Shown here: in pieces, positions 9,530 to 26,737 of the stretch | Layout: each line of letters starts with the position of its first letter | Position numbering within the stretch: the first letter of the stretch is position 1 | Position numbers and translations under genes: made by a program | Assembly: GCA_017302895.1 (NCBI GenBank) | Contig: JAFLBV010000001.1 | Span: 1,178,001-1,242,000, forward strand | Length of the DNA: 64,000 bases | Direction: 5' to 3' | DNA from: Ignavibacteria bacterium | Lineage (GTDB): Bacteria > Bacteroidota > Ignavibacteria > Ignavibacteriales > Ignavibacteriaceae | The notes under the pieces: generated by a model | What the model was told of the DNA's origin: nothing | What the model saw: only the letters and a program-made list of their open reading frames with translations | The model's database searches: none

Positions 9530-11005
9530 ATGAATTTTGAACAATTTTTGAGTTTGTCAGAAAAATACAATTACATCCCTGTTTATGAGAAAATAACTGC
9601 GGATTTGTTTACCCCTGTTATAGCTTATTTAAAGTTACGGAAAGCGGGGAAACAGAGTTTTCTTTTGGAAACGGTTGAGGGGAAAGAGAGTCTTGGGAGA
9701 TATTCCTTTATCGGGATTGACCCCCTGAAGATCATCTCAAACAAAGGGATGTCGCTCACAATATCAAAGGGAGGTCTTGAAGAAACGGGAGAGCAGAACA
9801 TCTTCGACTACCTCAAGGATGAACTGCACACGCGGAATCACCCGGCACTTGAGGAGCTTCCTTCTTTCACGGGTGGAACGGTGGGTTATCTCGCTTATGA
9901 AAATATCGCTTTGATCGAGAAAAAGCTGAAATTTGATTCCGGTGATGATGATATCTGCGATTCCATTCTCGGGGTTTATGATACGGTGCTTGCTTTCGAT
10001 CATTATAAACATCAACTAATTATCATAACCAATGTGGAAATCAAAAAGGGGGATGACCCTGAAGTTCTGTACTCCGGTGCGAAAAAGAAAATCAGGGAAT
10101 TGAGGAAAACTCTCTCTGTACCTCTTTCATTCGAATCTGATTTCACATTTGACAGGAATGTGGAAGAGAGTCTTAGTGACGAAGTGTTCTGTGAACTGGT
10201 TGAGGCGAGCAAACAGAATATTGTAAACGGGGATGTTTTCCAGATAGTCCTCTCGAAGAGATTCACTGCAGGGTATGAGGGGGATCTGTTCAATGTTTAC
10301 AGGGCTTTAAGGATCATCAATCCCTCTCCTTACATGTATTTTCTCGAATTTGAGAACGGACTTACAATCATCGGCACCTCACCTGAAAATCTTGTAAAAG
10401 TGAAAGACGGAATTGTGGAAGTGATGCCGATAGCAGGAACAAGGAAGCGGGGTGCAACTCCCGAAGCCGATAAAAAGCTCGAGGAAGACCTGATGAACGA
10501 CCCGAAGGAAATAGCCGAACATGTAATGCTTGTTGATCTCGGACGAAACGATGTGGGGCGGGTTGCTGAATATGGTTCCGTGGAAGTAACGGAAAAAATG
10601 AAAATACACCGTTTTTCGCATGTAATGCACATTGTTTCAAAGGTTCAGGGAAAGTTGAGAAGCGACAAGGATTGCATAGATGCGCTGAAATCATGCTTCC
10701 CTGCGGGAACTGTGACAGGCGCACCCAAGATCAGGGCGATGGAACTGATTTCAGGATACGAAAAGCTTCAGAGGAATGTATATGCCGGAGCCGTTGGATA
10801 CATCGATTTCTCAGGGAATCTTGATGTCTGCATTGCAATCCGGACACTTTTTGCGAAGGATCAAAAAATTCACTGGCAGGCGGGTGCAGGAATCGTCGCT
10901 GACAGTCAACCGAGGCTTGAGGCAAAGGAAATAAAAAACAAATCGGCAGTTTTACGAAACGCATTGGAACATGCAGAGGTGATAGATGAAAATATTGGTG
11001 ATTGA
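9530..11005 (+). CDS. trpE: Anthranilate synthase component I
   Basis: Converts chorismate and ammonia (from TrpG) to anthranilate, the first committed step of Trp synthesis. The 491-aa length is normal. The N-terminal part contains LLETVEGKESLGRYSFIG, in the region that binds feedback Trp in the family. The catalytic chorismate-binding domain has FQIVLSKRF, PSPYMYFL, PIAGTRKRG, DLGRNDVGRV and FPAGTVTGAPKIRAMEL. First gene of the operon, 30 bp past the attenuator; its end overlaps trpG by 20 nt, suggesting translational coupling. Confidence 0.97.
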   Translation: MNFEQFLSLSEKYNYIPVYEKITADLFTPVIAYLKLRKAGKQSFLLETVEGKESLGRYSFIGIDPLKIISNKGMSLTISKGGLEETGEQNIFDYLKDELHTRNHPALEELPSFTGGTVGYLAYENIALIEKKLKFDSGDDDICDSILGVYDTVLAFDHYKHQLIIITNVEIKKGDDPEVLYSGAKKKIRELRKTLSVPLSFESDFTFDRNVEESLSDEVFCELVEASKQNIVNGDVFQIVLSKRFTAGYEGDLFNVYRALRIINPSPYMYFLEFENGLTIIGTSPENLVKVKDGIVEVMPIAGTRKRGATPEADKKLEEDLMNDPKEIAEHVMLVDLGRNDVGRVAEYGSVEVTEKMKIHRFSHVMHIVSKVQGKLRSDKDCIDALKSCFPAGTVTGAPKIRAMELISGYEKLQRNVYAGAVGYIDFSGNLDVCIAIRTLFAKDQKIHWQAGAGIVADSQPRLEAKEIKNKSAVLRNALEHAEVIDENIGD

Positions 11006-11555
11006 CAATTACGATTCGTTCACATACAATCTGGTTCAGCTTGTTGGCAGGTTCACGAATAACATTGTGATAAAAAGAAATGATGAGACCACAGTCGAAG
11101 AGATCCGTGAGATGAATCCCGACAGGATTTTGATATCCCCGGGACCCGGCAGACCCGAAGAATCGGGAGTCTCTCCCTTGGTAATATCGGAACTGGGAAA
11201 AACGATCCCTGTTCTCGGTGTCTGTCTTGGACATCAGGCAATAGGAATTTCCTTTGGAAGTGAAGTGGTGCATGCTCCTGTTCTCATGCACGGCAAAACT
11301 TCGCAGATAACACACGATGCAAAAGGGATATTTGCTGGTGTTGAGCAGGAGTTTACAGCCACGAGATATCATTCATTGATTATCGACAAGGAATCGCTCG
11401 GTACTGATCTGGAGGTGACCGCCACTTCCGAGGATGGAGTCATTATGGGAGTAAGGCACAGGGAATATCCGATTGAAGGAATTCAATTCCATCCTGAATC
11501 GATACTCACCCTTGCAGGTGAAAAACTGTTAAAAAACTGGATTGAAGCACGATGA
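10986..11555 (+). CDS. trpG: Anthranilate synthase component II (glutamine amidotransferase)
   Basis: Class I glutamine amidotransferase that releases ammonia from glutamine for TrpE. It opens with KILVIDNYDSFTYNLVQ and carries the oxyanion region SPGPGRPEE, the nucleophile Cys in LGVCLGHQAIG and the His/Glu of the triad in IQFHPESIL. The 189-aa length fits a stand-alone TrpG with no fusion to TrpD. It overlaps trpE by 20 nt and trpD by 4 nt (ATGA). A dual role as PabA cannot be excluded from sequence. Confidence 0.95.
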   Translation: MKILVIDNYDSFTYNLVQLVGRFTNNIVIKRNDETTVEEIREMNPDRILISPGPGRPEESGVSPLVISELGKTIPVLGVCLGHQAIGISFGSEVVHAPVLMHGKTSQITHDAKGIFAGVEQEFTATRYHSLIIDKESLGTDLEVTATSEDGVIMGVRHREYPIEGIQFHPESILTLAGEKLLKNWIEAR

Positions 11556-12568
11556 AAACATATATTGAAAAAATGCTCGAGAGGGAACACCTCTCATTTG
11601 ACGAAGCCTTTTTCGTAATGGATACCATTATGTCGGGCGAAGTGAACAACTCACAACTCGCTGCACTTCTGATTGCACTTAAAGGCAAGGGCGAAACTGC
11701 CGCTGAAATCGCAGGATTCGCAAAGGCAATGCGGGGTAAGAGCGTAAAGGTTGAGACTGGTCGAACCGATTTGATTGATGTCTGTGGCACCGGAGGTGAT
11801 GATTCGGGAACATTCAATATCTCAACTGCCGCTGCATTTGTGGTTGCAGGAGCCGGGATTGGAGTGGCAAAGCACGGTAACAAATCAATCTCGAGCAGAT
11901 CAGGAAGTGCAGATGTTCTAACTGAGCTGGGGATAAAGATTGACCTCACGCCTGATCAGACAAAAGAGGCTCTGAATGAAATCGGTATCGGGTTCCTTTT
12001 TGCGCCACATTATCATCCGGCTATGAAATATGCAGCACTTGTTCGAAAGGAACTCGGAATGAAAACAGCTTTCAATCTGCTCGGACCCCTCACCAATCCG
12101 GCAGGTACGAAAAAACAGTTGATCGGAGTTTACAACAACAAGTCGGCAGCGCTTATGGCTGAAGCCGCGGGTTACCTCGAGATGGAAAGGGTATGCTTTA
12201 TTTGTACCGGTGACAGGCGGGATGAAATCACGCTTGATGAGCCAACTCTCGTGAACGAGTATAGAAATGGTTCAGGGGTGAACTCTTATGAACTGACAGC
12301 CGGCGGACTGGGTTACCCTGCCGTGAAAATTGAAGAATTACTCGGTGATTCACCTGAATACAATGCAAAACTGATATTCAATCTTCTTAAGAATCCTGAG
12401 AGGGACGGGAAGTTTTTTGTGGTGGCAGCGAATTCCGCTCTTGCACTTTACTGTGCCGGTGTTTCGGATGACATAAAAACATGTCTTGAAGTTGCAGAAG
12501 ATTCGATTCTGACCGGAAAAGCTTTTCAAAAAATGGAAGAACTGCGGAAATTCGGGGAGGACCTTTGA
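11552..12568 (+). CDS. trpD: Anthranilate phosphoribosyltransferase
   Basis: Transfers phosphoribose from PRPP to anthranilate. 338 aa, typical. The PRPP/Mg loop DVCGTGGDDSGTFNIST, then AKHGNKSISSRSGSADVLE-type motif (here SSRSGSADVLTELG) and RKELGMKTAFNLLGPLTNPA are all intact. The start ATG overlaps the trpG stop (ATGA), and a GGGGAGG just before its stop is the Shine-Dalgarno for trpC. Confidence 0.97.
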   Translation: MKTYIEKMLEREHLSFDEAFFVMDTIMSGEVNNSQLAALLIALKGKGETAAEIAGFAKAMRGKSVKVETGRTDLIDVCGTGGDDSGTFNISTAAAFVVAGAGIGVAKHGNKSISSRSGSADVLTELGIKIDLTPDQTKEALNEIGIGFLFAPHYHPAMKYAALVRKELGMKTAFNLLGPLTNPAGTKKQLIGVYNNKSAALMAEAAGYLEMERVCFICTGDRRDEITLDEPTLVNEYRNGSGVNSYELTAGGLGYPAVKIEELLGDSPEYNAKLIFNLLKNPERDGKFFVVAANSALALYCAGVSDDIKTCLEVAEDSILTGKAFQKMEELRKFGEDL

Positions 12569-13356
12569 TGAACATTCTTGAAAAAATAATCGCAGTAAAA
12601 AGAGATGAGGTCGCACTTCTAAAAAAGGAGATCAGAGTAAGGGAATATGATGAACTTGATCTTTTTTACAAGCCGGTCATAAGTCTGATTGAGACCATAA
12701 GAAGCACAAAAGATATCTCGATAATTGCTGAAATAAAAAAGGCAAGTCCTTCAAAAGGAGTGATAATTGAAGATTTTGATCATCTAAATATCGGAAAAGT
12801 CTATCTCGAAAACGGGGCTGATGCCATTTCCATTCTTACGGATGAAAAGTTTTTCCAAGGGAACATAAATTATCTCGCGGATATCGCCCGGATAAAAACA
12901 AAACCTCTTCTCCGCAAAGATTTTATCATCGACGAGATACAGATACTTCAGGCGAAGGAAAACGGTGCCGACGCAATTCTGTTGATCTGTGAAGCCCTGA
13001 GTAAAGCGGAGGTAAGGAAACTGACTCTGACCGCTCAATCGATGGGGCTGGAGGTGCTGCTGGAACTTCACTCTGTGAAACAACTTGACAAAATTGACTC
13101 AGCAATTCACCCGCTTGTTGGAGTGAATAACAGAGACCTTGAAACCTTTAAGGTTGATCTTAAAATAACAGAAGAGATTAGAAAAATGATTCCTGATGAT
13201 ATCCTCCTTGTATCCGAGAGCGGAATAAACACTGCAGATGATGTTAAAATGATCAGGGATTCGGGATGTGATGCCATCCTTGTGGGTGAACACTTTATGA
13301 GGAGCAAATCAATTGCAGAAAGCCTAAATGAAATGAAAGCATGGTGCCGAAGATGA
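12568..13356 (+). CDS. trpC: Indole-3-glycerol-phosphate synthase
   Basis: Ring-closing step from CdRP to indole-3-glycerol phosphate; TIM barrel. The ATG at 12568 shares one base with the trpD stop (TGATG) and has GGGGAGG 7 nt upstream, so it is preferred to the in-frame TTG one codon before. Family motifs: IIAEIKKASPSKG (catalytic Lys), LLRKDFIIDEIQI, GVNNRDLETFKVD, VSESGI and GEHFMRS. Separate from trpF, not fused as in enteric bacteria. Confidence 0.96.
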   Translation: MNILEKIIAVKRDEVALLKKEIRVREYDELDLFYKPVISLIETIRSTKDISIIAEIKKASPSKGVIIEDFDHLNIGKVYLENGADAISILTDEKFFQGNINYLADIARIKTKPLLRKDFIIDEIQILQAKENGADAILLICEALSKAEVRKLTLTAQSMGLEVLLELHSVKQLDKIDSAIHPLVGVNNRDLETFKVDLKITEEIRKMIPDDILLVSESGINTADDVKMIRDSGCDAILVGEHFMRSKSIAESLNEMKAWCRR

Positions 13357-13967
13357 TTGTTAAGGTCTGTGGAATAACAAATCTCGAAGATGCCATCCTT
13401 TGTGCAGATGCAGGAGCGGACATTCTGGGGTTTATATTTTACGAAAAGAGCAAGAGATATATTACTCCGGAGAACGCTGCTGAAATTGTCAAAAATTTAC
13501 CCGCAGCAATGAGAAAAGCAGGTGTGTTTGTGAATCCAGATGCAGACAAAATAAACGAAATAATTTCAAAAGCAGGGATTGGCACAGTACAGCTTCACGG
13601 AGACGAGCCACCTGCTTTACTTGACAGTATCAGCGGTAATAAAATAAAAGCTTTCCGGGTAGGTGAAGGTTTCGATTTTGACATTGTCAGGGATTATGAG
13701 TCTGCAATTCCACTTTTTGATTCATTCTCTGACGGGGAATATGGCGGCACGGGCATGAAATTCAACTGGGGAATGATTCCGCGGGAATTGAGCGGGAGAT
13801 ATTTCCTCTCGGGCGGCATCTCAATCGGGAACATTGAAGAAGCCGTTAGTGAACTGCACCCATTTGCGGTTGATCTCTCTTCTTCACTTGAGCTTTCACC
13901 GGGTAAAAAAGACCCGCGGAAAGTAAACGAATTTTTTGAACTGTTATACAGAAAGAATTTACGATAA
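13353..13967 (+). CDS. trpF: Phosphoribosylanthranilate isomerase
   Basis: Isomerises PRA to CdRP. The ATG at 13353 overlaps the trpC stop (ATGA) and gives the usual family start [10 protein letters not shown]; the ATG four codons earlier is less likely. The catalytic Cys is in VCGITN and the acid in the C-terminal [12 protein letters not shown] segment. About 204 aa, normal. The last base of its TAA is the first of the trpB ATG. Confidence 0.95.
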
Positions 13968-15169
13968 TGACAACCATGATTTATGATTATCCCGACATAA
14001 AAGGGAAATTTGGTAAGTACGGCGGAAAATTTGTGCCTGAAACCCTTACCTCGGCACTGATTGAGCTTGAGGAAGTTTACAACAGGATGAAGGATGACAC
14101 CACTTTTATCGCCGAGTTCATCGATCTTGAAAGAACCTACAATTCGAGACCCACCCCTCTTACATATGCAGAGAGGCTGACAAATCACTACGGGAAAGCA
14201 AAAATTTACCTGAAAAGGGAAGACCTGAACCATACGGGAGCCCACAAAATAAACAATGCACTCGGACAGGTTTTGCTTGCACAAAAGCTCGGGAAAAAGA
14301 GGATAATTGCAGAGACGGGGGCGGGTCAGCACGGGGTGGCAGTTGCAACTGTCTGTGCTAAATTCGGGCTTCAATGCGTGGTTTACATGGGTGAAGTTGA
14401 TGTTGCACGGCAAAAACCAAATGTTTTCAGAATGAAACTTCTTGGTGCGGAAGTGGTGCCTGTAACATCGGGAAGCCGCACGCTTAAAGATGCGACCAAC
14501 GAAGCAATCCGCGACTGGGTAACCAATGTGAAGGATACTCATTATATTATTGGTTCAGTCGTTGGTCCTCATCCTTATCCGATGATAGTTCGCGATTTTC
14601 AGTCGGTAATAGGCAAGGAAACGAAAGAACAAATCTACGGCATCGAGCGGAAGCTGCCTGATTATATTGTTGCATGTGTTGGCGGAGGAAGCAATGCCAT
14701 CGGAATGTTCCATCCTTTCATCAATAACAAGGGGGTGAATCTTATTGGTGTGGAGGCTGCGGGCTACGGAATTGATACGGATAAACATTGCGCATCCCTT
14801 ACTCTCGGACAGGCAGGTGTTTTTCAGGGGATGCTTACATATCTGCTGCAGGATAAAAACGGGCAGGTGGCGGAAGTTCACTCCATTTCTGCGGGGCTGG
14901 ATTACCCCGGAGTTGGACCAGAACACAGTTTCCTGAAGGACATGGAAAGAGTAAAATACTATTCGGTTACAGATAGCGAAGCTCTCTCTGCCACCGGGTT
15001 GCTGGCAAAATTCGAAGGGATTATACCGGCTTTGGAATCGGCACATGCTGTTGCATACCTTGATTATTTGATGCCTGAAACAAACAAGGGTGAAATTGTT
15101 GTTGTGAATGTTTCGGGTAGAGGGGACAAGGACCTTGAGACGATAATGAGTAGCGAATTAGCGAAGTAA
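13967..15169 (+). CDS. trpB: Tryptophan synthase beta chain
   Basis: PLP enzyme condensing indole and serine to Trp. The PLP Lys is in [13 protein letters not shown], the phosphate-binding glycine loop in [10 protein letters not shown], and the C-terminal end has [13 protein letters not shown]. 400 aa, the TrpB1 (TrpA-partnered) type: [15 protein letters not shown] at the N-terminus is typical of TrpB1 rather than TrpB2. Start TAATG overlaps trpF. Confidence 0.97.
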
Positions 15170-15197
15170 CGGAGTTATTAATTAAGATTGGAATGAG

Positions 15198-15980
15198 ATG
15201 TCGAAGATTAGAAATAAAATTGAAGAAGTAAACAACAGAAACGAGAAAGCTTTGTCAGTCTTTTTAACGGCGGGGTTCCCGGTTGGGTTGGATTTTGTTG
15301 ATCTTGCCGTGAGGGTGCTTGATGCCGGCGCTGATATGCTGGAAATCGGGATTCCTTTCAGTGATCCGCTTGCAGACGGATCTGTGATTCAGCAGTCCTC
15401 TCAGGCGGTTTTGGAGCAGGGGATGACTCTGGAAAGAGTTTTGGGATTTACGAAGGAGATTCGCGAGAGGACTGATAAACCCTTGATACTTATGGGTTAT
15501 GCAAATCCTGTTTATTTTTATGGTGTTGATTCGTTTTTGAGAGATGCGGAATCTGCAGGTGCCGATGGTCTGATAATCCCGGATGTTCCGCTCGATGAGT
15601 ATGATTCATTCTTCGGAGTGGGAGCAGTCCCTCTTGATACGATACTTCTCACTACGCCCGAGACTTCCTCCGCAAGAATCGCGGACATAGACCGGAAAAG
15701 CAGCGGGTTTGTTTATTGTGTCAGTGTGTCCGGGACAACAGGTGTGAGAAACGGATTTTCTGTTGAGGAACTGGCATCACTGAAGCGAACCAGGGAGTTG
15801 ATCCACAATAATAAAATGCTGACAGGATTCGGCATTTCGTCACCTGAGAATGTGAAGCAGGTTGTTCCTTATTGTGACGGAGTAATTGTTGGAAGTGCAG
15901 TTATTCGTTCGTTACGATTGTCAGGAACGGATGCGACCCTCGAGTTGGTCGGGCAATTGAAAAGAAGTTGTTCTTATTAA
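15198..15980 (+). CDS. trpA: Tryptophan synthase alpha chain
   Basis: Retro-aldol cleavage of indole-3-glycerol phosphate, passing indole to TrpB. The family signature LEIGIPFSDPLADGSVIQ carries the catalytic Glu; the second catalytic acid, Asp, is in LIIPDVPLDEY; the phosphate-binding GFGIS and GSAVI motifs are present. 260 aa. It is the only trp gene with a gap (28 bp) before it; GGAATGAG precedes the ATG. Last gene of the operon; its stop overlaps by 4 bp the stop of the convergent sensor kinase, with no terminator visible between. Confidence 0.96.
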   Translation: MSKIRNKIEEVNNRNEKALSVFLTAGFPVGLDFVDLAVRVLDAGADMLEIGIPFSDPLADGSVIQQSSQAVLEQGMTLERVLGFTKEIRERTDKPLILMGYANPVYFYGVDSFLRDAESAGADGLIIPDVPLDEYDSFFGVGAVPLDTILLTTPETSSARIADIDRKSSGFVYCVSVSGTTGVRNGFSVEELASLKRTRELIHNNKMLTGFGISSPENVKQVVPYCDGVIVGSAVIRSLRLSGTDATLELVGQLKRSCSY

Positions 15981-18900
15981 ACAGTTTCAGGCTTTTCAAA
16001 AGGGAGTGTTACGGTAAATTTCGAACCTTTATGCTCCTGGCTTTCCACGGTGATTTCACCGCCAAGTTTTGAGACAAAGTCATGAGTAATATTCAGACCG
16101 AGTCCTGTACCTTTCTCGTTTGAAGTTCCTTTTCGACTGTGGATGTTTTCGGGCGACAAGAGTCCGGGCAGCAATTCCTTTGGAATTCCAATACCGGTAT
16201 CCTCGACAGAGAGAGATATTGAATCACTGTTTTTTATAAGTGAAACAGTAATTTTCCCTCCCTTTCGGGTAAATTTGATAGCGTTACTGATCAGGTTTCT
16301 TAGAATTGATCTCATTATGTTGGCATCGGTGGTCATATTGACCACTTCATCAGATACAACATTCAGTACCAGTCCTTTTTTGGAGAGTTGTGGACTAAAA
16401 AGTCGCTGAACCTCCTCGATAATGGCGTTCAAATTTACATCCTCATGAGCAGGCTCCACACCTCCGATTTGCAACCTTGACCATTCAAGTAATCCGTCAA
16501 CAAGAGAGACTGTGTTTCGTGATGCAGCCAGTATTTTTTCGGTATATGATTTTATTACTGCTTTGTCCATATCGTTGGCTTCTTCATCGAGAATTTCCGA
16601 GAACCCAAGGATCGACATAAACGGACTGCGGAGATCGTGCGAGATAATGGAAAATATTCTGTCTTTGGTTTTATTGAGTCTGTCGAGTTCCTTTGTACGC
16701 TCCTGGACTTCAACTTCCAGATTCTCCAGCAGGACCTTCAGTTTCTCCTCTGATTCCCTAAGCGCTTTTGTTCTTTCTGAAACCATCGATTCCAGCCGTA
16801 CCTGCTCTTTGCTCGCAATGTAATACTTGTTAATCAAAACAGCAGAGCCGGCAACGACAAAAAGGGCAAGAAGAATGAACCACAACTTAAAGTAAAATGG
16901 CCGCCCAATAACAATAGTCGCAGAGTATACCGGTTGACTCCACTCGCTGAACCGGTTCTTTGCCATTACAACGAGCCGGTAGGATCCTGAGGGGAGATTG
17001 GAATAGCGGATATTAAACAATTGTGATTGGTTAATTGTATAAAAATCCTTGTCGAATCCCTCAAGTTTGATTTTATACTCGATGCTTGATTCACTAATAT
17101 AAGAGATGCCCCGAAACGAAAAGATAAGCGAGTTGTCAGTATGGGGAATCACTGCATTTTTATAAAGGCTGAACTGTTCTCCCGAACTTGTTTCAACATT
17201 GAGGAGAAAAACACCCGGTGGTGACACTTTGTTTGTTTTGCTGCCGATTCTGTACGCTGAAAGACCTGTATTTGTACCGATCCAGAAAACATTTTTTGAG
17301 TCAATTACGGCGGCCGATCGATTCATCTCATAACCGGCGAGCCCGTCCTCGGTTGAGTAGTTATAGACGGTATTTTTGCCGTCCCATCTTGTTAAACCAT
17401 CGATTGTACCAAACCAGTAACTTCCATCGTTGCTCTTAATGGTGAAGTAGATGCTTTTGGAAATGGAGAACCCGTTTTTTGAGAATTTTTTTAGTTTGTT
17501 GTTCTCCAGTGTAAAGAGACCGGACTCGGTTCCCACAAAAAATGTACCGTCATCATCTTTAAAAAGGGAGAATACATTCGCATTAAAAACCGATTGATTA
17601 GGGATTAGGCTTACAATTTTATCATCAGCAAGTTTGTAGACTCCGTTGATACCTGCAAGAAAGATATCACCATCGAACCGGAAGAGTTTCCTGAAATTAC
17701 GGTCTTTTGGGGCGGGGTCAATTTCTTCCAATTTTGAATTTGAATACTTAAACAACCCGTTGTTGGTGGCAACTAAAAGGCCGTATTTTTTATCGTATAG
17801 AACGGATGTGACGGAAAAAACTGATGGTACAACTATTGCCTGGGAGCCATTCGGGTCTATTTTTACCAGTCCGTAATATCCGGCTGCGCCCCAGATTTCA
17901 CCTTTATCGTCAACTGCAAAATCGAGCAACCTGGAGACGATGGTCTTGGTTCCCTCAACACCCTTAAAAAAAGTGGGGATGAACTTGCCGTTTTTATAGA
18001 CTGTGTATCCTGAATTGTGCCCGAAAATATAATTGCCCGGTTGGTACTCGAGGACCGCGGTCACCTCATCTTCTAGTAAGCCGGATTTTTTGGTAAAATT
18101 GGTAAAGGGATGAAAAGTAAGCTTGTCAACACCTCTTAGATCTGTAAACCAGACATTGTTTTCTTTGTCAACCAGTACAGAAGTGGCACCGTCAGAGGTC
18201 AAATCTGCATTTTTGTCGAGGGCGTAAAAGCTATTCCTGTTCCGGTCGTAAACATATTTGCTGACCTTGTTGCCATAGTAAATTTTTTCATCTTTGTCGG
18301 CGGCGATAAAATAATAGGGAAATTGCCTCATTAACTCTATTTTTGCCGGCAAATCTGTCTTCATCAGCCCGCCGTCCTGAATAATGCCAAACCAGGTCGC
18401 TGAGAGAAGATAAAAATGCGGTGACTTTCCGGAGTGGCGATGTACCGACACAGCGTATACAGGGTCCTTGATGTCGAACAAATTGCTTTGAACTTTTACC
18501 CGAAGGTTGCTGTCAAACTCGATCGATAAAAATCCGTTTCCCATGGCAACAAAAAATTTTTCCTCAAAGGAGGTCAAACCATGTATCTCAGCTGTAAGGG
18601 GTGAATTGGTCTTGTCAATTCTTTGCCACCTACCCTCGAACAGGATAAAAATTTCACTCGCGGTTACCAGGGCCACCATCGGTTTGTCTTTAATATAAAT
18701 AACTTCAAAACCGGTAGTATAAGGTACCTTTTCCGAAACTTCAGGTGGTTTTGCGAACTTTTCCCATTTTTTGCCATGGTTTACAAGGATATGATGAGGT
18801 GCTGCGATAGGAGCCAGCCATACCACTCCTTTTTTGTCTACGATTATTCTTTTGAATCCGCCTTTGTTTGTTTCATCGAGCAATTCGTAGTTTGTCCATT

Positions 18901-19069
18901 TGTAACCGTCATAAACTGAAGCACCGTGTGATGTGGCGAACCACATTCTGCCGAGGGAATCTTGTGCGGAGTCATGAATTTTATTTGTGGAGAGCCCGCT
19001 GCCAATGTTATAGTTGGTAATATTGAAGTCACCGTGATTGCCCCCGAGGGTTGGGAGTGATGAAATCAA
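15977..19069 (-). CDS. Two-component-regulator-propeller sensor histidine kinase
   Basis: Large sensor kinase of the hybrid two-component-system layout but without a receiver. Repeats such as DSLGRMWFATSHGASVYDG, DKENNVWFTDLRGVDKL and SNDGSYWFGTIDGLTRWDG build two periplasmic beta-propellers (about 20-640). A Y_Y_Y domain (about 650-720) and a TM segment (LWFILLALFVVAGSAVLI, near 735) follow, then a coiled coil, HisKA (FSIISHDLRSPFMS, His near 811) and HATPase (RNLISNAIKF, DTGIGI, GTGLGL). The coordinate given uses TTG at 19069, the first usual start codon, which cuts into a Leu-rich signal peptide. The frame stays open 17 more codons to a CTG at 19120 (LIKIKNNTLLIRLFLLLL), so the true start is probably upstream and non-ATG. 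The ligand is unknown; relatives sense polysaccharides. Confidence 0.88.
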   Translation of the reverse strand: MISSLPTLGGNHGDFNITNYNIGSGLSTNKIHDSAQDSLGRMWFATSHGASVYDGYKWTNYELLDETNKGGFKRIIVDKKGVVWLAPIAAPHHILVNHGKKWEKFAKPPEVSEKVPYTTGFEVIYIKDKPMVALVTASEIFILFEGRWQRIDKTNSPLTAEIHGLTSFEEKFFVAMGNGFLSIEFDSNLRVKVQSNLFDIKDPVYAVSVHRHSGKSPHFYLLSATWFGIIQDGGLMKTDLPAKIELMRQFPYYFIAADKDEKIYYGNKVSKYVYDRNRNSFYALDKNADLTSDGATSVLVDKENNVWFTDLRGVDKLTFHPFTNFTKKSGLLEDEVTAVLEYQPGNYIFGHNSGYTVYKNGKFIPTFFKGVEGTKTIVSRLLDFAVDDKGEIWGAAGYYGLVKIDPNGSQAIVVPSVFSVTSVLYDKKYGLLVATNNGLFKYSNSKLEEIDPAPKDRNFRKLFRFDGDIFLAGINGVYKLADDKIVSLIPNQSVFNANVFSLFKDDDGTFFVGTESGLFTLENNKLKKFSKNGFSISKSIYFTIKSNDGSYWFGTIDGLTRWDGKNTVYNYSTEDGLAGYEMNRSAAVIDSKNVFWIGTNTGLSAYRIGSKTNKVSPPGVFLLNVETSSGEQFSLYKNAVIPHTDNSLIFSFRGISYISESSIEYKIKLEGFDKDFYTINQSQLFNIRYSNLPSGSYRLVVMAKNRFSEWSQPVYSATIVIGRPFYFKLWFILLALFVVAGSAVLINKYYIASKEQVRLESMVSERTKALRESEEKLKVLLENLEVEVQERTKELDRLNKTKDRIFSIISHDLRSPFMSILGFSEILDEEANDMDKAVIKSYTEKILAASRNTVSLVDGLLEWSRLQIGGVEPAHEDVNLNAIIEEVQRLFSPQLSKKGLVLNVVSDEVVNMTTDANIMRSILRNLISNAIKFTRKGGKITVSLIKNSDSISLSVEDTGIGIPKELLPGLLSPENIHSRKGTSNEKGTGLGLNITHDFVSKLGGEITVESQEHKGSKFTVTLPFEKPETV

Positions 19070-19283: not shown

Positions 19284-21203
19284 ATGCCGGAATTTAAGTT
19301 TAAACCATTTAATGAGATGCGGGAAGAAGACTACCGCACAGTCGGATTCAAGTCAGGACTTGAAGTTCATCAACAGCTTTTAACAGAAAAAAAACTCTTT
19401 TGCAGGTGTCCTGCGGGAATGTACAGCGATCAGTACAACGCTGAGATTCTCAGGCACATGCGACCCACACTCTCCGAACTTGGTGAGTATGACGGGACTG
19501 CACTAATGGAGTTCAAGACGAGGAAAGAGATTATCTACCGGATCAGTCGTGAGACAGTCTGCACCTATGAGATGGATGACACTCCACCATTCGAGATTAA
19601 TGATGAAGCCCTGGATATTGCATTCGGGCTCGGTATGCTTTACGGTTCCTCGATGGTGGATGAGGTGCATATCGCCAGGAAGCAATATCTTGACGGCAGT
19701 ATTCCGACCGGATTTCAGAGGACGGCAATTGTTTGTCTCGACGGGAGGGTACCCTTCAAAGACAGGCACATACAGGTTATTCAACTCTCGATAGAGGAAG
19801 ATTCGTGCCGCGAAGTAAGCGACATAGGGCATCGCCGTACTTATCTTACCGACAGACTTGGTATGCCATTGGTTGAGACGGTCACAGGTCCCGACATGAG
19901 AACCCCTCAGGAGGTTGCGGAAGTGGCGGAAATTCTAAGAAGACTTGCAAGAAGCACAGGCAAAGTTCGTTCCGGTATTGGAGCCGCCCGTCAGGATGTA
20001 AATGTGAGCGTTACCGGTGGTACAAGAATTGAAATTAAGGGGGTTCCGAGGATTCCTTTGATCCCGCTTCTTACATATAACGAGGCAATGCGGCAGTGGA
20101 ACCTGCTCCGTCTCAGGGACGAACTAAACAGGAGGGGAATCACGAAAGACACCTTCGAAAGTGTCACTACAGATGTTACCCGCCTGCTCAAGAAAACGCG
20201 TTATCAGCCGATTGCAAGCGCCATTCTTACCGGGATGAAGGTTTTGTGTGTCTCACTGAAAGGGTTCAAGGGATTGCTCAGGTGGGAGACACAGACGGAC
20301 ACCTATTTCTCAAGAGAAATATCTGACAGAGTCAGGGTAATTTCATGCCTGACCACACTTCCAAACATCATTCATTCTGACAGTCCAAGTGAAACGATTG
20401 CAACTTCGGAATGGAACACTCTTAAAAAAGCTGTGAATGCATCTGAAGACGATACCATTGTGCTTGTTTGGGGAGATGAACAGGATGCAAAATCGGGTGC
20501 TGCGGAGATTGCAATAAGAGCAAAGGAAGCCACAATCGGGATTCCGTCAGAAACCCGGCAGGCACTCAGAGATGGAACAAATGGATTCGAAAGAATTCTA
20601 CCGGGTGCCGACAGAATGTACCCCGATACCGACCTTCCGCCAAAGAAAATTACACAGGAAAGAATTGCAAGAATCAGAGCAGGACTTCCAGAACCTGTCT
20701 GGGAAAGAGAAGCGAGATACCGCAGTCTGGGTGTCCCTGCCGAACATATTGAAAAACTTGCGATGTCGCCACTGGCGGGGATTTTCGAAGATGCCATAAA
20801 CAAATCAAATATCAACCCCCGTTTTGCCGCAAGAGTGTTGCTGGAGTACCCAAGAAGACTGAAGAAAGAGCATCTGCCCGTTGAAAATCTTACCGGTGAG
20901 AATTATGATTCCCTTTTCCGGCTGATGAACGAGGGGAAAGTCGTTAAAGACAGTCTCTACTTTATTTTAAGAGAATCTCTCGTCTCAGGCAGGGATATTG
21001 AATCAACAGTTCAACCCCTTTCAAACTCTGAAGAGATAAAAGCGATTGTCCTTAAACATGCCGAAAAACTGAAATCGACGAAGATCAGAAGACCCGAAAA
21101 GGCAAAAACCATCCTGATGGGGATGATCATGGAGGAACTAAGGCTTAAGGCAAGCGGAAGTGAAGTTGAAAAAGCAATGAATGAACTTGTGATGGAGGTG
21201 TAA
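19284..21203 (+). CDS. gatE: Archaeal-type Glu-tRNA(Gln) amidotransferase subunit E
   Basis: Kinase/transamidase subunit of GatDE, which converts Glu-tRNA(Gln) to Gln-tRNA(Gln). It is related to GatB, but 639 aa long instead of about 480. The cradle domain starts GFKSGLEVHQQLLTEKKLFCRCP. An AspRS-like (GAD) insertion follows at about 300-440, which GatB lacks and GatE has. Downstream are the GatE motifs GADRMYPDTDLPP and a helical/YqeY-like tail (KAKTILMGMIMEELRLKASG). Two Cys in the CRCP motif may bind zinc. It is followed after one base by gatD, the expected partner. In textbook distribution GatDE is archaeal, so its presence here suggests lateral transfer; codon use looks like that of its neighbours by eye. 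Confidence 0.93.
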   Translation: MPEFKFKPFNEMREEDYRTVGFKSGLEVHQQLLTEKKLFCRCPAGMYSDQYNAEILRHMRPTLSELGEYDGTALMEFKTRKEIIYRISRETVCTYEMDDTPPFEINDEALDIAFGLGMLYGSSMVDEVHIARKQYLDGSIPTGFQRTAIVCLDGRVPFKDRHIQVIQLSIEEDSCREVSDIGHRRTYLTDRLGMPLVETVTGPDMRTPQEVAEVAEILRRLARSTGKVRSGIGAARQDVNVSVTGGTRIEIKGVPRIPLIPLLTYNEAMRQWNLLRLRDELNRRGITKDTFESVTTDVTRLLKKTRYQPIASAILTGMKVLCVSLKGFKGLLRWETQTDTYFSREISDRVRVISCLTTLPNIIHSDSPSETIATSEWNTLKKAVNASEDDTIVLVWGDEQDAKSGAAEIAIRAKEATIGIPSETRQALRDGTNGFERILPGADRMYPDTDLPPKKITQERIARIRAGLPEPVWEREARYRSLGVPAEHIEKLAMSPLAGIFEDAINKSNINPRFAARVLLEYPRRLKKEHLPVENLTGENYDSLFRLMNEGKVVKDSLYFILRESLVSGRDIESTVQPLSNSEEIKAIVLKHAEKLKSTKIRRPEKAKTILMGMIMEELRLKASGSEVEKAMNELVMEV

Positions 21204-21204
21204 T

Positions 21205-22593
21205 ATGGCAACAGATAATGATTATAAAGGATACAGAGGCGAAACGCTTGCAACACTTCAGAAGTTTTCTGCGATGATTTGGAGCGACATTGAAGTGCTC
21301 ACTTCGGACGGGACCTATTACGGCAGAGTTTTGCCCCGTTCCGAAACTGCGGATGACAAACACATTGTGATTAAACTTGTTTCAGGTTACAATATCGGAA
21401 TTGCTGCTTCAAGGGTGCTTGATATAAAAGTAACGGGCAGGAAAGAGGCACATTACAAGATCCCCGAGAAAGAATTTCCATATGATCCCCGAAAGCCGAG
21501 AGTAAAACTTCTCGGAACGGGAGGTACCATCGCAAGTCGCCTCGACTACAGAACGGGTGCCGTGATTCCTGCATTTTCTCCGGGAGAACTCTACGGATCA
21601 GTCCCTGAACTTGCAGATATCTGCAATCTCGAAACGGAAAAACTGTACGGTGTCTTCAGTGAAAATATGGGACCTGAACAATGGATCGGAACTGCCGAAG
21701 CCATCGGGCGTGAAATCGAAAAGGGCGTTCAGGGCATTGTAATCGGCCACGGTACCGATACCATGCACCACACTGCAGCAATTCTATCGTTTATGGTCCA
21801 GAACTCACCTGTCCCGATCGTCATGGTGGGTTCTCAGCGCTCGAGTGACAGACCCTCTTCTGATGCAGCTCTGAATCTTATGCACAGCGTAAAAACCGCT
21901 GCCGAGAGTGATATTGCAGAAGTGCTGGTATGCATGTTCGGACCCACTTCCGATGACTACGGTTTGCTCCATCGTGGTACAAGAGTCAGGAAAATGCACT
22001 CGAGCTACAGATCCACTTTCAGAACAATCGGTGATATTCCCATTGCAATGGTGAGCCGGGAAACAATCACACCACTTCGGCAGGATTATAAAAGAAGAAG
22101 ACACGATAAAAATGTGATAATTAATACTGCGTTTGAAGAGAAGGTGGGAATCGTCTATTACTATCCCAATATGAAACCCGATATTATCGATTCTTTGATC
22201 GACAACGGGTACCGGGGAATAGTAATTGCGGGAACGGGGCTGGGACATGTGAATAAACCTCTTTATCCTGCGTTAAAAAGAGCAAAGGAGAAAAATGTCG
22301 CTGTTTACATGACAGTACAGACACTTTGGGGTTATGTGCAGATGTATGTATATGACACAGGCAGAGATATGATGGAACTCGGAGTGGTACCTTGTGCGAA
22401 TATGCTTCCGGAAGTGGCGTACATGAAACTCGGTTGGGCACTCGGTCAGACTGAGGACCTCGAGGTGGTGAAAAAGATAATGCTCACTCCCGTAAACGGC
22501 GAAATCACAGAACGGGAACCGAGCAACGGGTATCTCATCCTGCAGGGTGGAATCCCTGAAGTAGAGGAGTTTATTTCAAAATACAGAAAGTAA
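21205..22593 (+). CDS. gatD: Archaeal-type Glu-tRNA(Gln) amidotransferase subunit D (asparaginase-like)
   Basis: Glutaminase subunit of GatDE: releases ammonia from Gln/Asn for GatE. An N-terminal small beta-barrel (about 25-80; SDIEVLTSDGTYYGRVLPR) is specific to GatD and absent from plain L-asparaginases. The asparaginase domain follows with LLGTGGTIASR (Thr near 105/108) and VIGHGTDTMHHT (catalytic Thr-Asp). The length, 462 aa, is slightly above archaeal GatD (about 435). A strong GGAGG lies 5 nt before the ATG, and the spacing to gatE is one base, so the two are co-expressed. A free asparaginase is unlikely because of the N-terminal domain and the gatE neighbour. Confidence 0.93.
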   Translation: MATDNDYKGYRGETLATLQKFSAMIWSDIEVLTSDGTYYGRVLPRSETADDKHIVIKLVSGYNIGIAASRVLDIKVTGRKEAHYKIPEKEFPYDPRKPRVKLLGTGGTIASRLDYRTGAVIPAFSPGELYGSVPELADICNLETEKLYGVFSENMGPEQWIGTAEAIGREIEKGVQGIVIGHGTDTMHHTAAILSFMVQNSPVPIVMVGSQRSSDRPSSDAALNLMHSVKTAAESDIAEVLVCMFGPTSDDYGLLHRGTRVRKMHSSYRSTFRTIGDIPIAMVSRETITPLRQDYKRRRHDKNVIINTAFEEKVGIVYYYPNMKPDIIDSLIDNGYRGIVIAGTGLGHVNKPLYPALKRAKEKNVAVYMTVQTLWGYVQMYVYDTGRDMMELGVVPCANMLPEVAYMKLGWALGQTEDLEVVKKIMLTPVNGEITEREPSNGYLILQGGIPEVEEFISKYRK

Positions 22594-22626: not shown

Positions 22627-24771
22627 ATGCCGGAGAGATTGATTAACGAGATTATCAAGCTGCAGGAATTCAGGGATTTGCTCCTTAATACCACCAAAAA
22701 GTTTATCGATGTGTCGATTGAAGACCTTGACATACTTCTTGATGGTATCCTCAAGGATGTAGGAGAGTTTTTTCAATGTGACAGGAGTTATATTTTTCTG
22801 TTCGACCGTGAACGGCAGATAATGAACAACACTCATGAGTGGTGTGCAGAGGGCATTTCTCCAGAAAAGGAAAATTTACAAAATATTCCTTTCGACATGC
22901 TGCCTGAGTGGATGGAGGAACTTTCAAAAGACAGAAATATTCATATTCCACTTGTCTCGGAACTTCCGGAGTCATGGTCATCAGTCAGGGAGATACTTGA
23001 AGCGCAGGGGATTCAATCTCTCATCGTGGTGCCGATAATTTTTAATAAGGAAGTGATTGGTTTCAACGGCTTCGACTCTGTCAGAAATCAAAGATCCTGG
23101 CAGGAGGAGGAGATTAGCCTTTTAAGGATACTGGCAAACAATATAGCTTCTGCTGTGAGCAGAAGAGAGACCGATATTGAATTGATCAATGCCAAGAAAG
23201 CTGCTGAAAAGGCGAACATGGCAAAATCGGAATTCCTTGCAAACATGTCCCATGAAATAAGGACGCCTCTGAACGGTGTAATCGGGTTCACTGAGTTGTT
23301 GCTTAGCTCAAAGTTGGACGACAGCCAGAGATTGTATCTCGAAAATGCGATAACTTCAGCACATACTCTTCTATCGCTGCTTAATGATATTCTCGATTTT
23401 TCGAAAATAGAGGCGGGGAAACTTGAACTTGACGAGGTTTTAACCGATATCGTTTCGATAATTGAGCAAACTGCTGATGTGGTTAAACTTCAGGCAGCAA
23501 TAAAAGGGATTGAACTAATGGTTAACATTGAACCGGGGATTCCCAGATTTGTTACAACCGATCCGGTAAGACTGCGTCAGATCCTTGTAAATCTGCTTAA
23601 TAATGCCGTGAAATTTACAAACAAAGGCGAGGTGGAGATCAAAGTAACAAATGCAGGCATTAATGATTCAGAGAAGAGGATCCAATATCTTTTTGAGGTC
23701 AGGGATACCGGTATCGGAATCAGTGATGCGGATATGTCAAGGATTTTTAAGGCTTTTGAGCAAGCGGACACTTCGACCACAAGGAAGTTTGGCGGAACGG
23801 GTCTCGGACTTGTAATCTCGGGGAAATTGCTCGAGAAACTTGATTCAAAACTTCATGTTTCGAGCGAGCCGGGCAAAGGGAGCACCTTTAGTTTCATGTT
23901 GGATCTCCCACTCGCGCTTGTAGATCAGGAGGATCCGATCTCCATTCAGTCGATAAAGAAGGTGCTGGTTGTTGAAGACAACGATCAGAATTTGAAAATT
24001 TTGAAGGGGATGCTTTCCTATAAAGGAATAGCGGTGGAGACTTCGGGAGACGGGATTGACGCCCTCAAAAGAATCCGTACAGAGGGTGATTATGATGCCG
24101 TTCTGGTTGATATGAACCTCCCCTTCATGGATGGTATCGAGGTAATTAGCAATATCAGAAAAAAATTGAATCTTCAACCTGACGAACTTCCTGTTATACT
24201 TCTCGGGTCTTCCTCGGATGATCCCTTAATCAGGGAGGCTGCTTCCGGTTTGGGGATTCACTCAATTTTAATGAAGCCTCTTAAGATGGACGAGCTATAT
24301 GCTGAGTTGGCGAAGATCAGTGATTCCGGTGAAAACCTGAAGGAGGTTGGAAAGAACGAACATGCTCATCCTCACCGAAAGGATCACAGTTCCAACATAA
24401 TGCTGATTGCTGAGGATAATGAATTTAATCTTGTGCTCGCGAGATCTCTGATACACAGGAACTTCCCCGGGTTCTCAATTATTGAGGCGAGAAACGGCAC
24501 CGAGGCAATCGAGCTATACAAATCTGAAAAGCCTGACATGATTTTAATGGACCTGCAGATGCCGGAGATGGACGGATTTCAGGCAACAAGAATTATCAGG
24601 AAAATGGAAGAAGACGATGGAACACACATCCCGATTATAGCCCTCACTGCAGGTGCTCACCAGGGAGAAAAAGAGAAATGTCTTGCAATTGGAATGGATG
24701 ATTTCCTTACGAAGCCTGTAAAACTGGATACTTTTGTTGATACATTGCAGAGATTTCTTAAGAAAGATTGA
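22627..24771 (+). CDS. GAF-domain hybrid histidine kinase with two receiver domains
   Basis: Soluble hybrid kinase with no TM segment. A GAF domain (about 10-190; FFQCDRSYIFLFDRERQI, VVPIIFNKEVIGFNGFD) is followed by HisKA (FLANMSHEIRTPLNG, His near 209), HATPase (VNLLNNAVKF, DTGIGIS, GGTGLGL), REC1 (VVEDNDQN, acceptor Asp in VDMNLPFMDG near 494) and REC2 (IAEDNEFN, acceptor Asp in MDLQMPEMDG near 641, Lys in TKPV). No HPt or DNA-binding domain is present, so phosphate must leave through another protein. It lies 33 bp after gatD on the same strand and may be co-transcribed. Its last 14 bp overlap the convergent next gene. Confidence 0.9.
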   Translation: MPERLINEIIKLQEFRDLLLNTTKKFIDVSIEDLDILLDGILKDVGEFFQCDRSYIFLFDRERQIMNNTHEWCAEGISPEKENLQNIPFDMLPEWMEELSKDRNIHIPLVSELPESWSSVREILEAQGIQSLIVVPIIFNKEVIGFNGFDSVRNQRSWQEEEISLLRILANNIASAVSRRETDIELINAKKAAEKANMAKSEFLANMSHEIRTPLNGVIGFTELLLSSKLDDSQRLYLENAITSAHTLLSLLNDILDFSKIEAGKLELDEVLTDIVSIIEQTADVVKLQAAIKGIELMVNIEPGIPRFVTTDPVRLRQILVNLLNNAVKFTNKGEVEIKVTNAGINDSEKRIQYLFEVRDTGIGISDADMSRIFKAFEQADTSTTRKFGGTGLGLVISGKLLEKLDSKLHVSSEPGKGSTFSFMLDLPLALVDQEDPISIQSIKKVLVVEDNDQNLKILKGMLSYKGIAVETSGDGIDALKRIRTEGDYDAVLVDMNLPFMDGIEVISNIRKKLNLQPDELPVILLGSSSDDPLIREAASGLGIHSILMKPLKMDELYAELAKISDSGENLKEVGKNEHAHPHRKDHSSNIMLIAEDNEFNLVLARSLIHRNFPGFSIIEARNGTEAIELYKSEKPDMILMDLQMPEMDGFQATRIIRKMEEDDGTHIPIIALTAGAHQGEKEKCLAIGMDDFLTKPVKLDTFVDTLQRFLKKD

Positions 24772-25726
24772 TCCCGTTTATATCGAGTCCGCAGTGTGAG
24801 CCGGTGCCTGTGAAGATTACTTCCGTACCCTCTTTCAGGGTAAGAGTGACGGCTGAGTTGAGACTTTCGGTTACTTTGGTCAGTCCGTTCATGAAATAAG
24901 GAGCGATCAGGTCGGATGCCTTGCCTCTATCAATCGTAAATTCCAGTGAAAATCTTCCTTTTGAGATCGTGGCAGATACCTTGCTTTCATCCACCTGAAA
25001 CCCGGTCATTTTTGATCCGTTCCATGTTGCGAATGTGAACTGCCTCCCCTGATAGTGAAAAACCGAGAGGAATCCGGTAAAACTTCCTGTGAGCCAGGGT
25101 ATTTTCGCGACCGAAAACATAAATGAAGTGTCACTGTTGTCGAAGTGGTTCGACTGACACCAGACATACCCTTCAGGAAATGAAGATCCCCAGTCCTTTT
25201 CAAGATATGCCTTTCCGCCTGTGAAGTCGATTAACCTTCCGTCCACATTGAGCGAGCCTGAAATTCCGGAAGACATCGAAAGAATTGCATGGTTGCATTC
25301 CATCATCGGGACATAAGAGTACCATCCCATAACATTGGGACTGAGGAGAGCAGCTTGAAATATCACCGGATCATGGAACGAAAGAGTGCCCTTTACCGTA
25401 ATATCCCCTTTGAGATCAAGAATGATATTCTCGCGTGAAAAGTAATTGCTTCCAATATAAACTTTAAAATCTGAATCGTCTGATTCCAGATCCTTGATGT
25501 CATTAAATATTACACTTGACCGGTGTGAGGTGCCATCGAGAATCTGAGTGAAGCATTTTGCATCATCTCCTTTCACAATCGCAGGGATTATTGCAAGCAC
25601 TTCTGTTTTTTCGGAATTAACAAGTTTGTAGAACCACCCCTCAAAAAAGAAATTTTTGTAACCTTCCCGGTGATAAACCCACGGTTTGAAGACCAGTCTG
25701 TAGTGGTTGTAGATTGCTTTAAGCAT
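24758..25726 (-). CDS. Tocopherol-cyclase-like family protein, function unknown
   Basis: 322 aa without signal peptide. FFEGWFYKL near the N-terminus and KAYLEKDWGSSFPEGYVWCQ in the middle match the two most conserved stretches of the tocopherol cyclase family (plant VTE1, cyanobacterial SlrI737-type). Bacterial members outside cyanobacteria have no established reaction, so chromanol-ring formation is only one possibility; a lipocalin-like lipid-binding role is another. It is divergently paired with a UbiA-type prenyltransferase, which in tocopherol synthesis makes the substrate of the cyclase. It overlaps the end of the hybrid kinase gene by 14 bp on the opposite strand. Confidence 0.65.
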   Translation of the reverse strand: MLKAIYNHYRLVFKPWVYHREGYKNFFFEGWFYKLVNSEKTEVLAIIPAIVKGDDAKCFTQILDGTSHRSSVIFNDIKDLESDDSDFKVYIGSNYFSRENIILDLKGDITVKGTLSFHDPVIFQAALLSPNVMGWYSYVPMMECNHAILSMSSGISGSLNVDGRLIDFTGGKAYLEKDWGSSFPEGYVWCQSNHFDNSDTSFMFSVAKIPWLTGSFTGFLSVFHYQGRQFTFATWNGSKMTGFQVDESKVSATISKGRFSLEFTIDRGKASDLIAPYFMNGLTKVTESLNSAVTLTLKEGTEVIFTGTGSHCGLDINGINLS

Positions 25727-25780
25727 AATTGAACAATAAAGTGAAAAAAATCAGTTATTTTAGCATAACATTTATACAAT

Positions 25781-26737
25781 ATGCGAAAAATCAAAATGAA
25801 ACAAAGACCAAATTTACTCAAAATGATAAGGGCACCGTTCCTGTCATCCATTCTTGCGCCACTTCTCTTCGGAACAATTGCCGCGGTAATTATCAAAGAT
25901 GGTGCATTTTCTTTTCCCGGCTTCTTCTTTGTGCTTGTCATGGGAATTGGTCTTCATGCGGCAACAAATGTTTACAACGACATCTATGACACTATTCAGA
26001 GAACAGACAAACTGAATGTTCACCGGAACGAATTTAGCGGTGGCAGCGGCATTCTAGTTGATTTTCCTGACATGATGCCACGAATGTACAAAATTGCCCG
26101 TGTATCACTGGTGATTGCCCTCGCTGGTGCCATCGGGATCGCATTTTTTATTGACAAAAATCTTTATCCATGGCTTGCGGGGTTATATCTGTTGTCTGCA
26201 TTCTTTGCGAAATATTACACTGCCGCTCCAGTTAAACTGGCATACAGAGGAATGGGTGAAGTGTCGGTTTGGTTTGCATTTGGTCCGATGGCAGTTCTTG
26301 TGGCAGCGGTGAGTCAAAATGTTCTTTTTGAACCATTAATACTACTGCTCATGCCAATCAGCGGACTCAGTACCCTCTCAATTTTGTGGATGGGGCAAAT
26401 GATCGATCTGGACGCAGACAAAGCAACGGGAAAACTTGGTGCGGTATCAAGAATCGGAACAGGTCATTCACGGCTTGTTTATATCGTGATTCAATCTCTC
26501 CTGATTGCCAATATCATAATGATTCCGCTTTTTATCCCCAAGGCCGGGTATTTTGTTCTGATCTCCCTGTTGCCATATATTATGCTGTTTCCCAAAGTCG
26601 TGAAGATAATTATGCGTGAGCACTCGAATGCGAACGGCTTAAAGCCCGGAGCCGGAATGAATGTGATGGTTCATCTGCAACTTTCGATTTTGCTCATCCT
26701 TGGTTTATTGGGTGCTTTGCTTGCTTCTTCCTTTTAA
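25781..26737 (+). CDS. UbiA-family prenyltransferase (MenA-like)
   Basis: Integral membrane enzyme attaching a polyprenyl chain to an aromatic acceptor; about eight TM helices. The first Asp-rich motif NVYNDIYDT (near 65) and the second GQMIDLDADKATGK (near 205) bind the Mg-diphosphate. The shape and the TDKLNVHRNEFSGGSG segment resemble 1,4-dihydroxy-2-naphthoate prenyltransferase (MenA), the quinone-pathway enzyme, but other UbiA acceptors cannot be excluded. ATG 25781 or the Met five codons on could be the start. A long inverted repeat begins at its stop codon. Confidence 0.8.
   Translation: MRKIKMKQRPNLLKMIRAPFLSSILAPLLFGTIAAVIIKDGAFSFPGFFFVLVMGIGLHAATNVYNDIYDTIQRTDKLNVHRNEFSGGSGILVDFPDMMPRMYKIARVSLVIALAGAIGIAFFIDKNLYPWLAGLYLLSAFFAKYYTAAPVKLAYRGMGEVSVWFAFGPMAVLVAAVSQNVLFEPLILLLMPISGLSTLSILWMGQMIDLDADKATGKLGAVSRIGTGHSRLVYIVIQSLLIANIIMIPLFIPKAGYFVLISLLPYIMLFPKVVKIIMREHSNANGLKPGAGMNVMVHLQLSILLILGLLGALLASSF

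Follow-up and report, generated by a model that had tools for sequence, protein, structure and literature searches.

Predicted GatDE amidotransferase of a deep bacterial branch in a GlnRS-bearing Ignavibacteria genome

The gatE and gatD genes

The window, the whole stretch of 64,000 nucleotides of an Ignavibacteria genome that was analysed, carries on its plus strand two adjacent genes separated by a single base, gatE (19284..21203, 639 aa) and gatD (21205..22593, 462 aa), at the coordinates given in an earlier sequence-only reading. The gatE product was assigned as subunit E of Glu-tRNA(Gln) amidotransferase, of a bacterial-type branch called here 'type 2', and passed both NCBIfam equivalog models (NF003107, 565 bits against a cut-off of 456; TIGR00134, 481 bits against 320), as did the gatD product with the models of its own subunit (NF003217, 518 bits against 310; TIGR02153, 516 bits against 324). 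GatB models scored GatE far too low (157 bits against a cut-off of 338), and its partner is GatD.

The catalytic N-terminal part of GatE, or cradle (19341..20138, plus strand, about residues 20-285), corresponds to Pfam GatB_N and is followed by an AspRS-like insertion (20139..20528, plus strand, about residues 286-415), matched by Pfam GAD with 22.2 bits, slightly below the cut-off of 23.4, and by AspRS folds. The protein ends with a weakly conserved helical, YqeY-like tail (20649..21200, plus strand, about residues 456-639), in which Pfam GatB_Yqey covers residues 501-634 (E 1.3e-9). GatD combines the GatD_N barrel (PF18195) with an asparaginase-type glutaminase/asparaginase region made up of two Pfam domains (PF00710 and PF17763). 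According to the alignment, it also carries a C-terminal extension (22519..22590, plus strand, about residues 439-462, ...NGYLILQGGIPEVEEFISKYRK), which is present in type-2 GatD and missing from canonical archaeal GatD.

The nearest solved structures for both subunits are those of Pyrococcus abyssi (1zq1) and Methanothermobacter thermautotrophicus (2d6f), with E-values of 1e-97 to 1e-122 and, for GatE, 35-36% identity. The AlphaFold model of GatE (mean pLDDT 90.5) had 1zq1_C and 2d6f as its top PDB fold matches and, more weakly, AspRS and YqeY structures, so that all three parts of the expected architecture were recovered; the GatD model reached a pLDDT of 83.9. In alignments of 16 and of 40 GatE sequences, E27/H29, R132-T147, E171/E172 and E198 of the cradle were invariant. 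Among them, E27, H29, E171/E172 and E198 are the equivalents of the phosphorylation (kinase) site of GatB and GatE and are unchanged in all aligned relatives, as are T108, T184, D185 and K263 (the T/TD/K set) of GatD; the catalytic roles of these residues are those which we take over from known GatB and asparaginase structures.

The pair thus resembles archaeal GatDE in subunits, domain order, catalytic residues and overall fold. With bacterial GatCAB it has in common the catalytic cradle of GatE and GatB, but GatE pairs with an asparaginase-type GatD and not with GatA and GatC, and, unlike GatB, has the AspRS-like insertion; the host's own GatB and GatA are encoded by separate genes. Judged by equivalog scores, domains and fold matches, the two genes encode a complete GatE and a complete GatD, so that this bacterium has a genuine GatDE; the sequence-only reading was right in naming them and in describing an AspRS-like insertion and a YqeY-like tail in one subunit and a barrel with an asparaginase domain in the other.

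Genome integrity and selection

The source genome (3.98 Mb, 6 contigs) is 100% complete with 0.28% contamination, and the window lies on a contig of 1.9 Mb with even G+C, which makes a contaminant origin unlikely. The same gatE/gatD pair occurs in a genome of the same genus. Between the two genomes dN/dS was 0.005 for gatD and 0.031 for gatE, and rose along GatE from 0.003 in the catalytic N-terminal part to 0.011 in the insertion and 0.12 in the tail. This strong purifying selection implies functional genes. That contamination, pseudogenes or the mis-annotation of an asparaginase plus a GatB could account for GatDE is therefore hardly conceivable, given the contig, the shared pair, dN/dS values far under 1, and the presence elsewhere in the genome of separate genes for GatB and for a type I asparaginase; no supporting point was found for any of these explanations.

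The GatD proteins of the other bacterial genera compared were 65-86% identical to that of the window. Conservation of GatE is uneven: within Ignavibacteria identity was 80% in the catalytic part and 33% in the tail, and within canonical archaea 57% and 33%, respectively. Tail columns conserved at 70% or more numbered 31 in canonical archaeal GatE and only 6 in type 2, counts that depend on an uncertain tail alignment and on a broader sampling of type 2. Most of the residues that distinguish the two types fall within the catalytic region (94-103, 134-141, 175 and 448), and two of them in type 2, Y135 and P141, are the residues that GatB has at those positions.

Distribution among bacteria

In the survey of the phylum, GatE scored above the cut-off in 29 of 395 genomes, all of them of the window's class, within which the distribution is patchy. 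When one genome of each bacterial and archaeal species was scanned, at least 568 relatives were confirmed, and among the best 80 of them 78 were bacterial by name and 2 belonged to Thermoplasmatota. The bacterial relatives among these 80 represent more than a dozen phyla, the groups including Ignavibacteria, Kapaibacteria, Bacteroidales, Aminicenantes, Cloacimonadota, Planctomycetota, Calditrichota, Krumholzibacteriota, Fermentibacteria, Myxococcota, Gemmatimonadota, KSB1, Acidobacteriota, Zixibacteria and Caldisericia. No viral carriers of GatDE were found, and the one match on a plasmid was partial and archaeal.

The sequence-only reading had described GatDE as classically regarded as restricted to Archaea. 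The literature indeed says so, a 2022 review stating that GatDE is 'only being found in archaea' (PMC9499178), but the restriction itself is contradicted by the relatives listed above. The same reading had named abundant, vertically inherited GatDE in bacteria as a finding that would speak against it; the abundance is largely there, although the patchy occurrence is not that of simple vertical inheritance. NCBI models already label such bacterial proteins GatD and GatE, the bacterial members being latent in databases, and no paper describing bacterial GatDE was found in the freely accessible literature searched.

In nearly all bacterial loci gatE is followed directly by gatD, and no other widely conserved partner gene was found near the pair, as would be expected of a stand-alone two-subunit enzyme. 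Gene neighbours gave little clue to function: the only candidate was a PIN/PhoH-like gene, called from sequence, which precedes gatE by about 70-730 bases in 13 loci of a single order-level group (L043-L045, L052-L054, L057, L058, L062, L085, L087, L091 and L092).

Phylogeny of type-2 and canonical GatDE

Maximum likelihood trees of GatE contained two branches, one of canonical archaeal sequences and one, type 2, of all bacterial sequences together with eight from Thermoplasmatota. The split was supported at 100/100 in a bootstrapped tree of 55 rows, recurred in a tree of 125 rows, and was found with support 99/95 in the GatD tree. The bacterial GatE branch is sister to all canonical archaeal GatE sampled, not nested within them, and in neither the GatE nor the GatD tree do the bacterial proteins fall inside an archaeal clade. 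They are about equidistant (33-36% identity) from those of Thermococci, Methanobacteria and Thermoplasmatota, and the bacterial gene order, gatE-gatD, is reversed in canonical archaea (gatD-gatE). The trees give no direction for any inter-domain transfer, since archaeal sampling comprised Thermoplasmatota and only two other species, and since in the GatB-rooted GatE tree the GatB branch is too long and distant for a trustworthy root.

A recent lateral transfer from one of the sampled archaeal lineages might be suspected from the classically archaeal nature of GatDE, its patchy distribution in bacteria and the type-2 copies held by some Thermoplasmatota. The well-supported sister position in both trees, the nearly equal distances to three archaeal groups and the reversed gene order make such an origin improbable. 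Taken together, the sequences indicate that bacterial GatDE forms a deep branch, strongly conserved and spread over many bacterial phyla, which also occurs in some Thermoplasmatota.

There is a sign of transfer between bacteria: in G156 (locus L065), a genome from the same family as the window, both GatE and GatD group with Bacteroidales, apart from the rest of the class, and the pair was likely acquired from another bacterium. Of the lateral transfer proposed by the sequence-only reading, the transfer as such is plausible on this evidence, while a direct archaeal donor finds no support in the sister-branch topology.

Supply of Gln-tRNA(Gln) in the host

The source genome encodes a GlnRS scoring above the cut-off (TIGR00440, 740 bits) with readable HIGH- and KMSKS-type motifs, as well as GatA (574 bits), GatB, GltX, AsnRS and AspRS. 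Both of its tRNA-Gln genes, one UUG and one CUG, have U1-A72 and G73, the bacterial identity, and A1-U72 was seen only in tRNA-Trp among the tRNAs read. In Archaea, GatDE recognises A1:U72 together with the D-loop, and tRNA-Gln carries A73 (PMC9499178), so the setting here, with bacterial-type tRNA-Gln and a GlnRS in the cell, differs from the canonical one. The idea that this host obtains its Gln-tRNA(Gln) mainly or solely through GatDE, as Archaea do, which the sequence-only reading had expressed as a distinct route in this lineage, may draw on the completeness and conservation of the pair; with GlnRS, GatA and GatB present in a 100% complete genome and tRNA-Gln of the bacterial kind, it is very improbable as a main route and ruled out as the sole one.

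Among 48 bacterial genomes with GatDE, of which 29 belong to the class and 19 to other phyla and many are MAGs, GlnRS was found in 42, and the remaining 6 all had GatA above the cut-off. The presence of GlnRS and/or GatA in 48/48 genomes makes GatDE an addition and not the sole supplier, and none of these bacteria seems to rely on GatDE alone. Compensation by GatDE for a loss of GatCAB was considered and rejected, as within the class GatA was missing in 7 of 29 genomes with GatDE and in 3 of 30 without it (p 0.18); all 7 GatDE-positive members without GatA had GlnRS. Nor was there any association of GatDE with GlnRS inside the class (26/29 versus 26/30). The position of R358 of Thermus GluRS, tried as a marker of discriminating and non-discriminating enzymes, was uninformative, since arginine occurs there whether or not the genome has GlnRS.

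The occurrence in a single cell of a direct and an indirect route that seem redundant has a precedent in Bdellovibrio, Deinococcus and Thermus, where GlnRS, AsnRS and GatCAB occur together (PMC4206432), but the present host adds a second kind of amidotransferase. To judge from selection and co-occurrence, gatE and gatD are functional yet apparently redundant for the supply of Gln-tRNA(Gln).

Type-2 GatE and GlnRS in Thermoplasmatota

GlnRS was found in 8 of 10 Thermoplasmatota genomes with type-2 GatE and in 0 of 19 with canonical GatE only (Fisher p 1e-5, a value that ignores the relatedness of the genomes), a link compatible alike with the repair of Glu-tRNA(Gln) and with a changed substrate, the two readings weighed below. 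Two genomes, G444 and G435, have both GatE types. The first pair of tRNA-Gln is U1-A72 in bacterial type-2 hosts and A1-U72 in archaeal ones, and co-adaptation of type 2 with U1-A72 tRNA-Gln is ruled out by the archaea that keep A1-U72 while having GlnRS and type-2 GatE.

According to the literature, no archaeon has GlnRS (PMC9499178). Full-length bacterial-type GlnRS genes (685-745 bits) were nevertheless located close to tRNA-Gln(CUG) with the archaeal A1-U72 pair at loci L263, L264 and L266-L271 (genomes G429, G444, G420, G451, G432, G424, G421 and G433), and in G420 the GlnRS gene is also near an archaeal-type LysRS. Because of these neighbours, the GlnRS genes look genuinely archaeal. Several type-2 GatE loci of Thermoplasmatota (L190, L193, L194, L198 and L209) have no gatD within a few kilobases, and at L201 and L203 gatD is nearby on the opposite strand. 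The canonical GatD and GatE of G435 and G444 (L188 and L191), the two archaea that combine both GatDE types with GlnRS, are on unusually long branches with catalytic residues intact.

Possible role of type-2 GatDE

By homology, GatD would liberate ammonia from glutamine or asparagine, and GatE would use ATP to phosphorylate the side chain on a mis-aminoacylated tRNA and then amidate it. On the simplest reading, and the likeliest of those weighed here, type-2 GatDE would act beside GlnRS as a second amidotransferase and repair Glu-tRNA(Gln). We regard the chances of this proposal, in which catalysis, substrate and repair role are all inferred, as evenly balanced. The equivalog scores, the fold and the invariant kinase-site and T/TD/K residues favour it, and the low dN/dS of both genes (0.005 and 0.031), the stand-alone gatE-gatD adjacency and the co-residence with GlnRS and GatA are in line with it. 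The tail of archaeal GatE holds the tRNA elbow, and the poor conservation of this tail in type 2 speaks against the repair of Glu-tRNA(Gln), as does the difference between bacterial U1-A72 and archaeal A1-U72 hosts, which is odd for an enzyme that reads the first pair.

A serious rival to repair holds that type-2 GatDE, as an intact amidotransferase, acts on something other than Glu-tRNA(Gln), be it a further mis-aminoacylated tRNA or a carboxylate of non-tRNA kind. Recruitment and spread as a module might explain its coexistence with every canonical route to Gln-tRNA, including the redundancy with GlnRS and/or GatA in all 48 bacterial genomes and the retention of both canonical and type-2 GatE in two Thermoplasmatota. 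Consistent with a change of substrate are also the clustering of type-separating residues in the catalytic part, with Y135 and P141 common to GatB, the weak constraint on the tRNA-binding tail next to a nearly frozen catalytic part, and a tRNA-Gln first pair that is not common to all hosts. Nonetheless, type 2 retains every catalytic and domain feature of a Glu-tRNA amidotransferase and no conserved neighbour gene indicates another pathway, and we hold the changed substrate to be possible but somewhat doubtful. Equally tentative is its fuller form, in which type 2 would be an ancient second subfamily, present in many bacterial phyla and some GlnRS-bearing archaea, that does not supply Gln-tRNA(Gln) for translation and instead amidates a different aminoacyl-tRNA or other substrate, its pocket and its tail for tRNA recognition having changed.

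On either reading the window's enzyme differs from archaeal GatDE (1zq1, 2d6f) in its 35-36% GatE identity and separate 100/100 branch, its reversed gene order, GatD extension and weakly conserved GatE tail, and a host with GlnRS and U1-A72/G73 instead of A1-U72/A73 tRNA-Gln. The division into GatDE for Archaea and GatCAB or GlnRS for Bacteria underlies accounts of how glutamine entered the code and of the last common ancestor (PMC9499178, citing Sheppard and Soll 2008). This textbook split is broken by a bacterial GatDE that is conserved, widespread and present beside GlnRS, and the question arises of the enzyme's task where it is seemingly redundant, for which type 2 and canonical GatDE, sometimes in one archaeal cell, offer a ready comparison.

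Other genes in the window

Positions 9530-15980 of the window hold a complete trp operon (trpE, trpG, trpD, trpC, trpF, a trpB-like PALP gene and trpA), after which comes a propeller-type histidine kinase gene on the minus strand (15977-19069). Two divergent neighbours at 24758-26737 encode a tocopherol cyclase-like protein (PF14249, 82 bits) and a prenyltransferase of the UbiA type.
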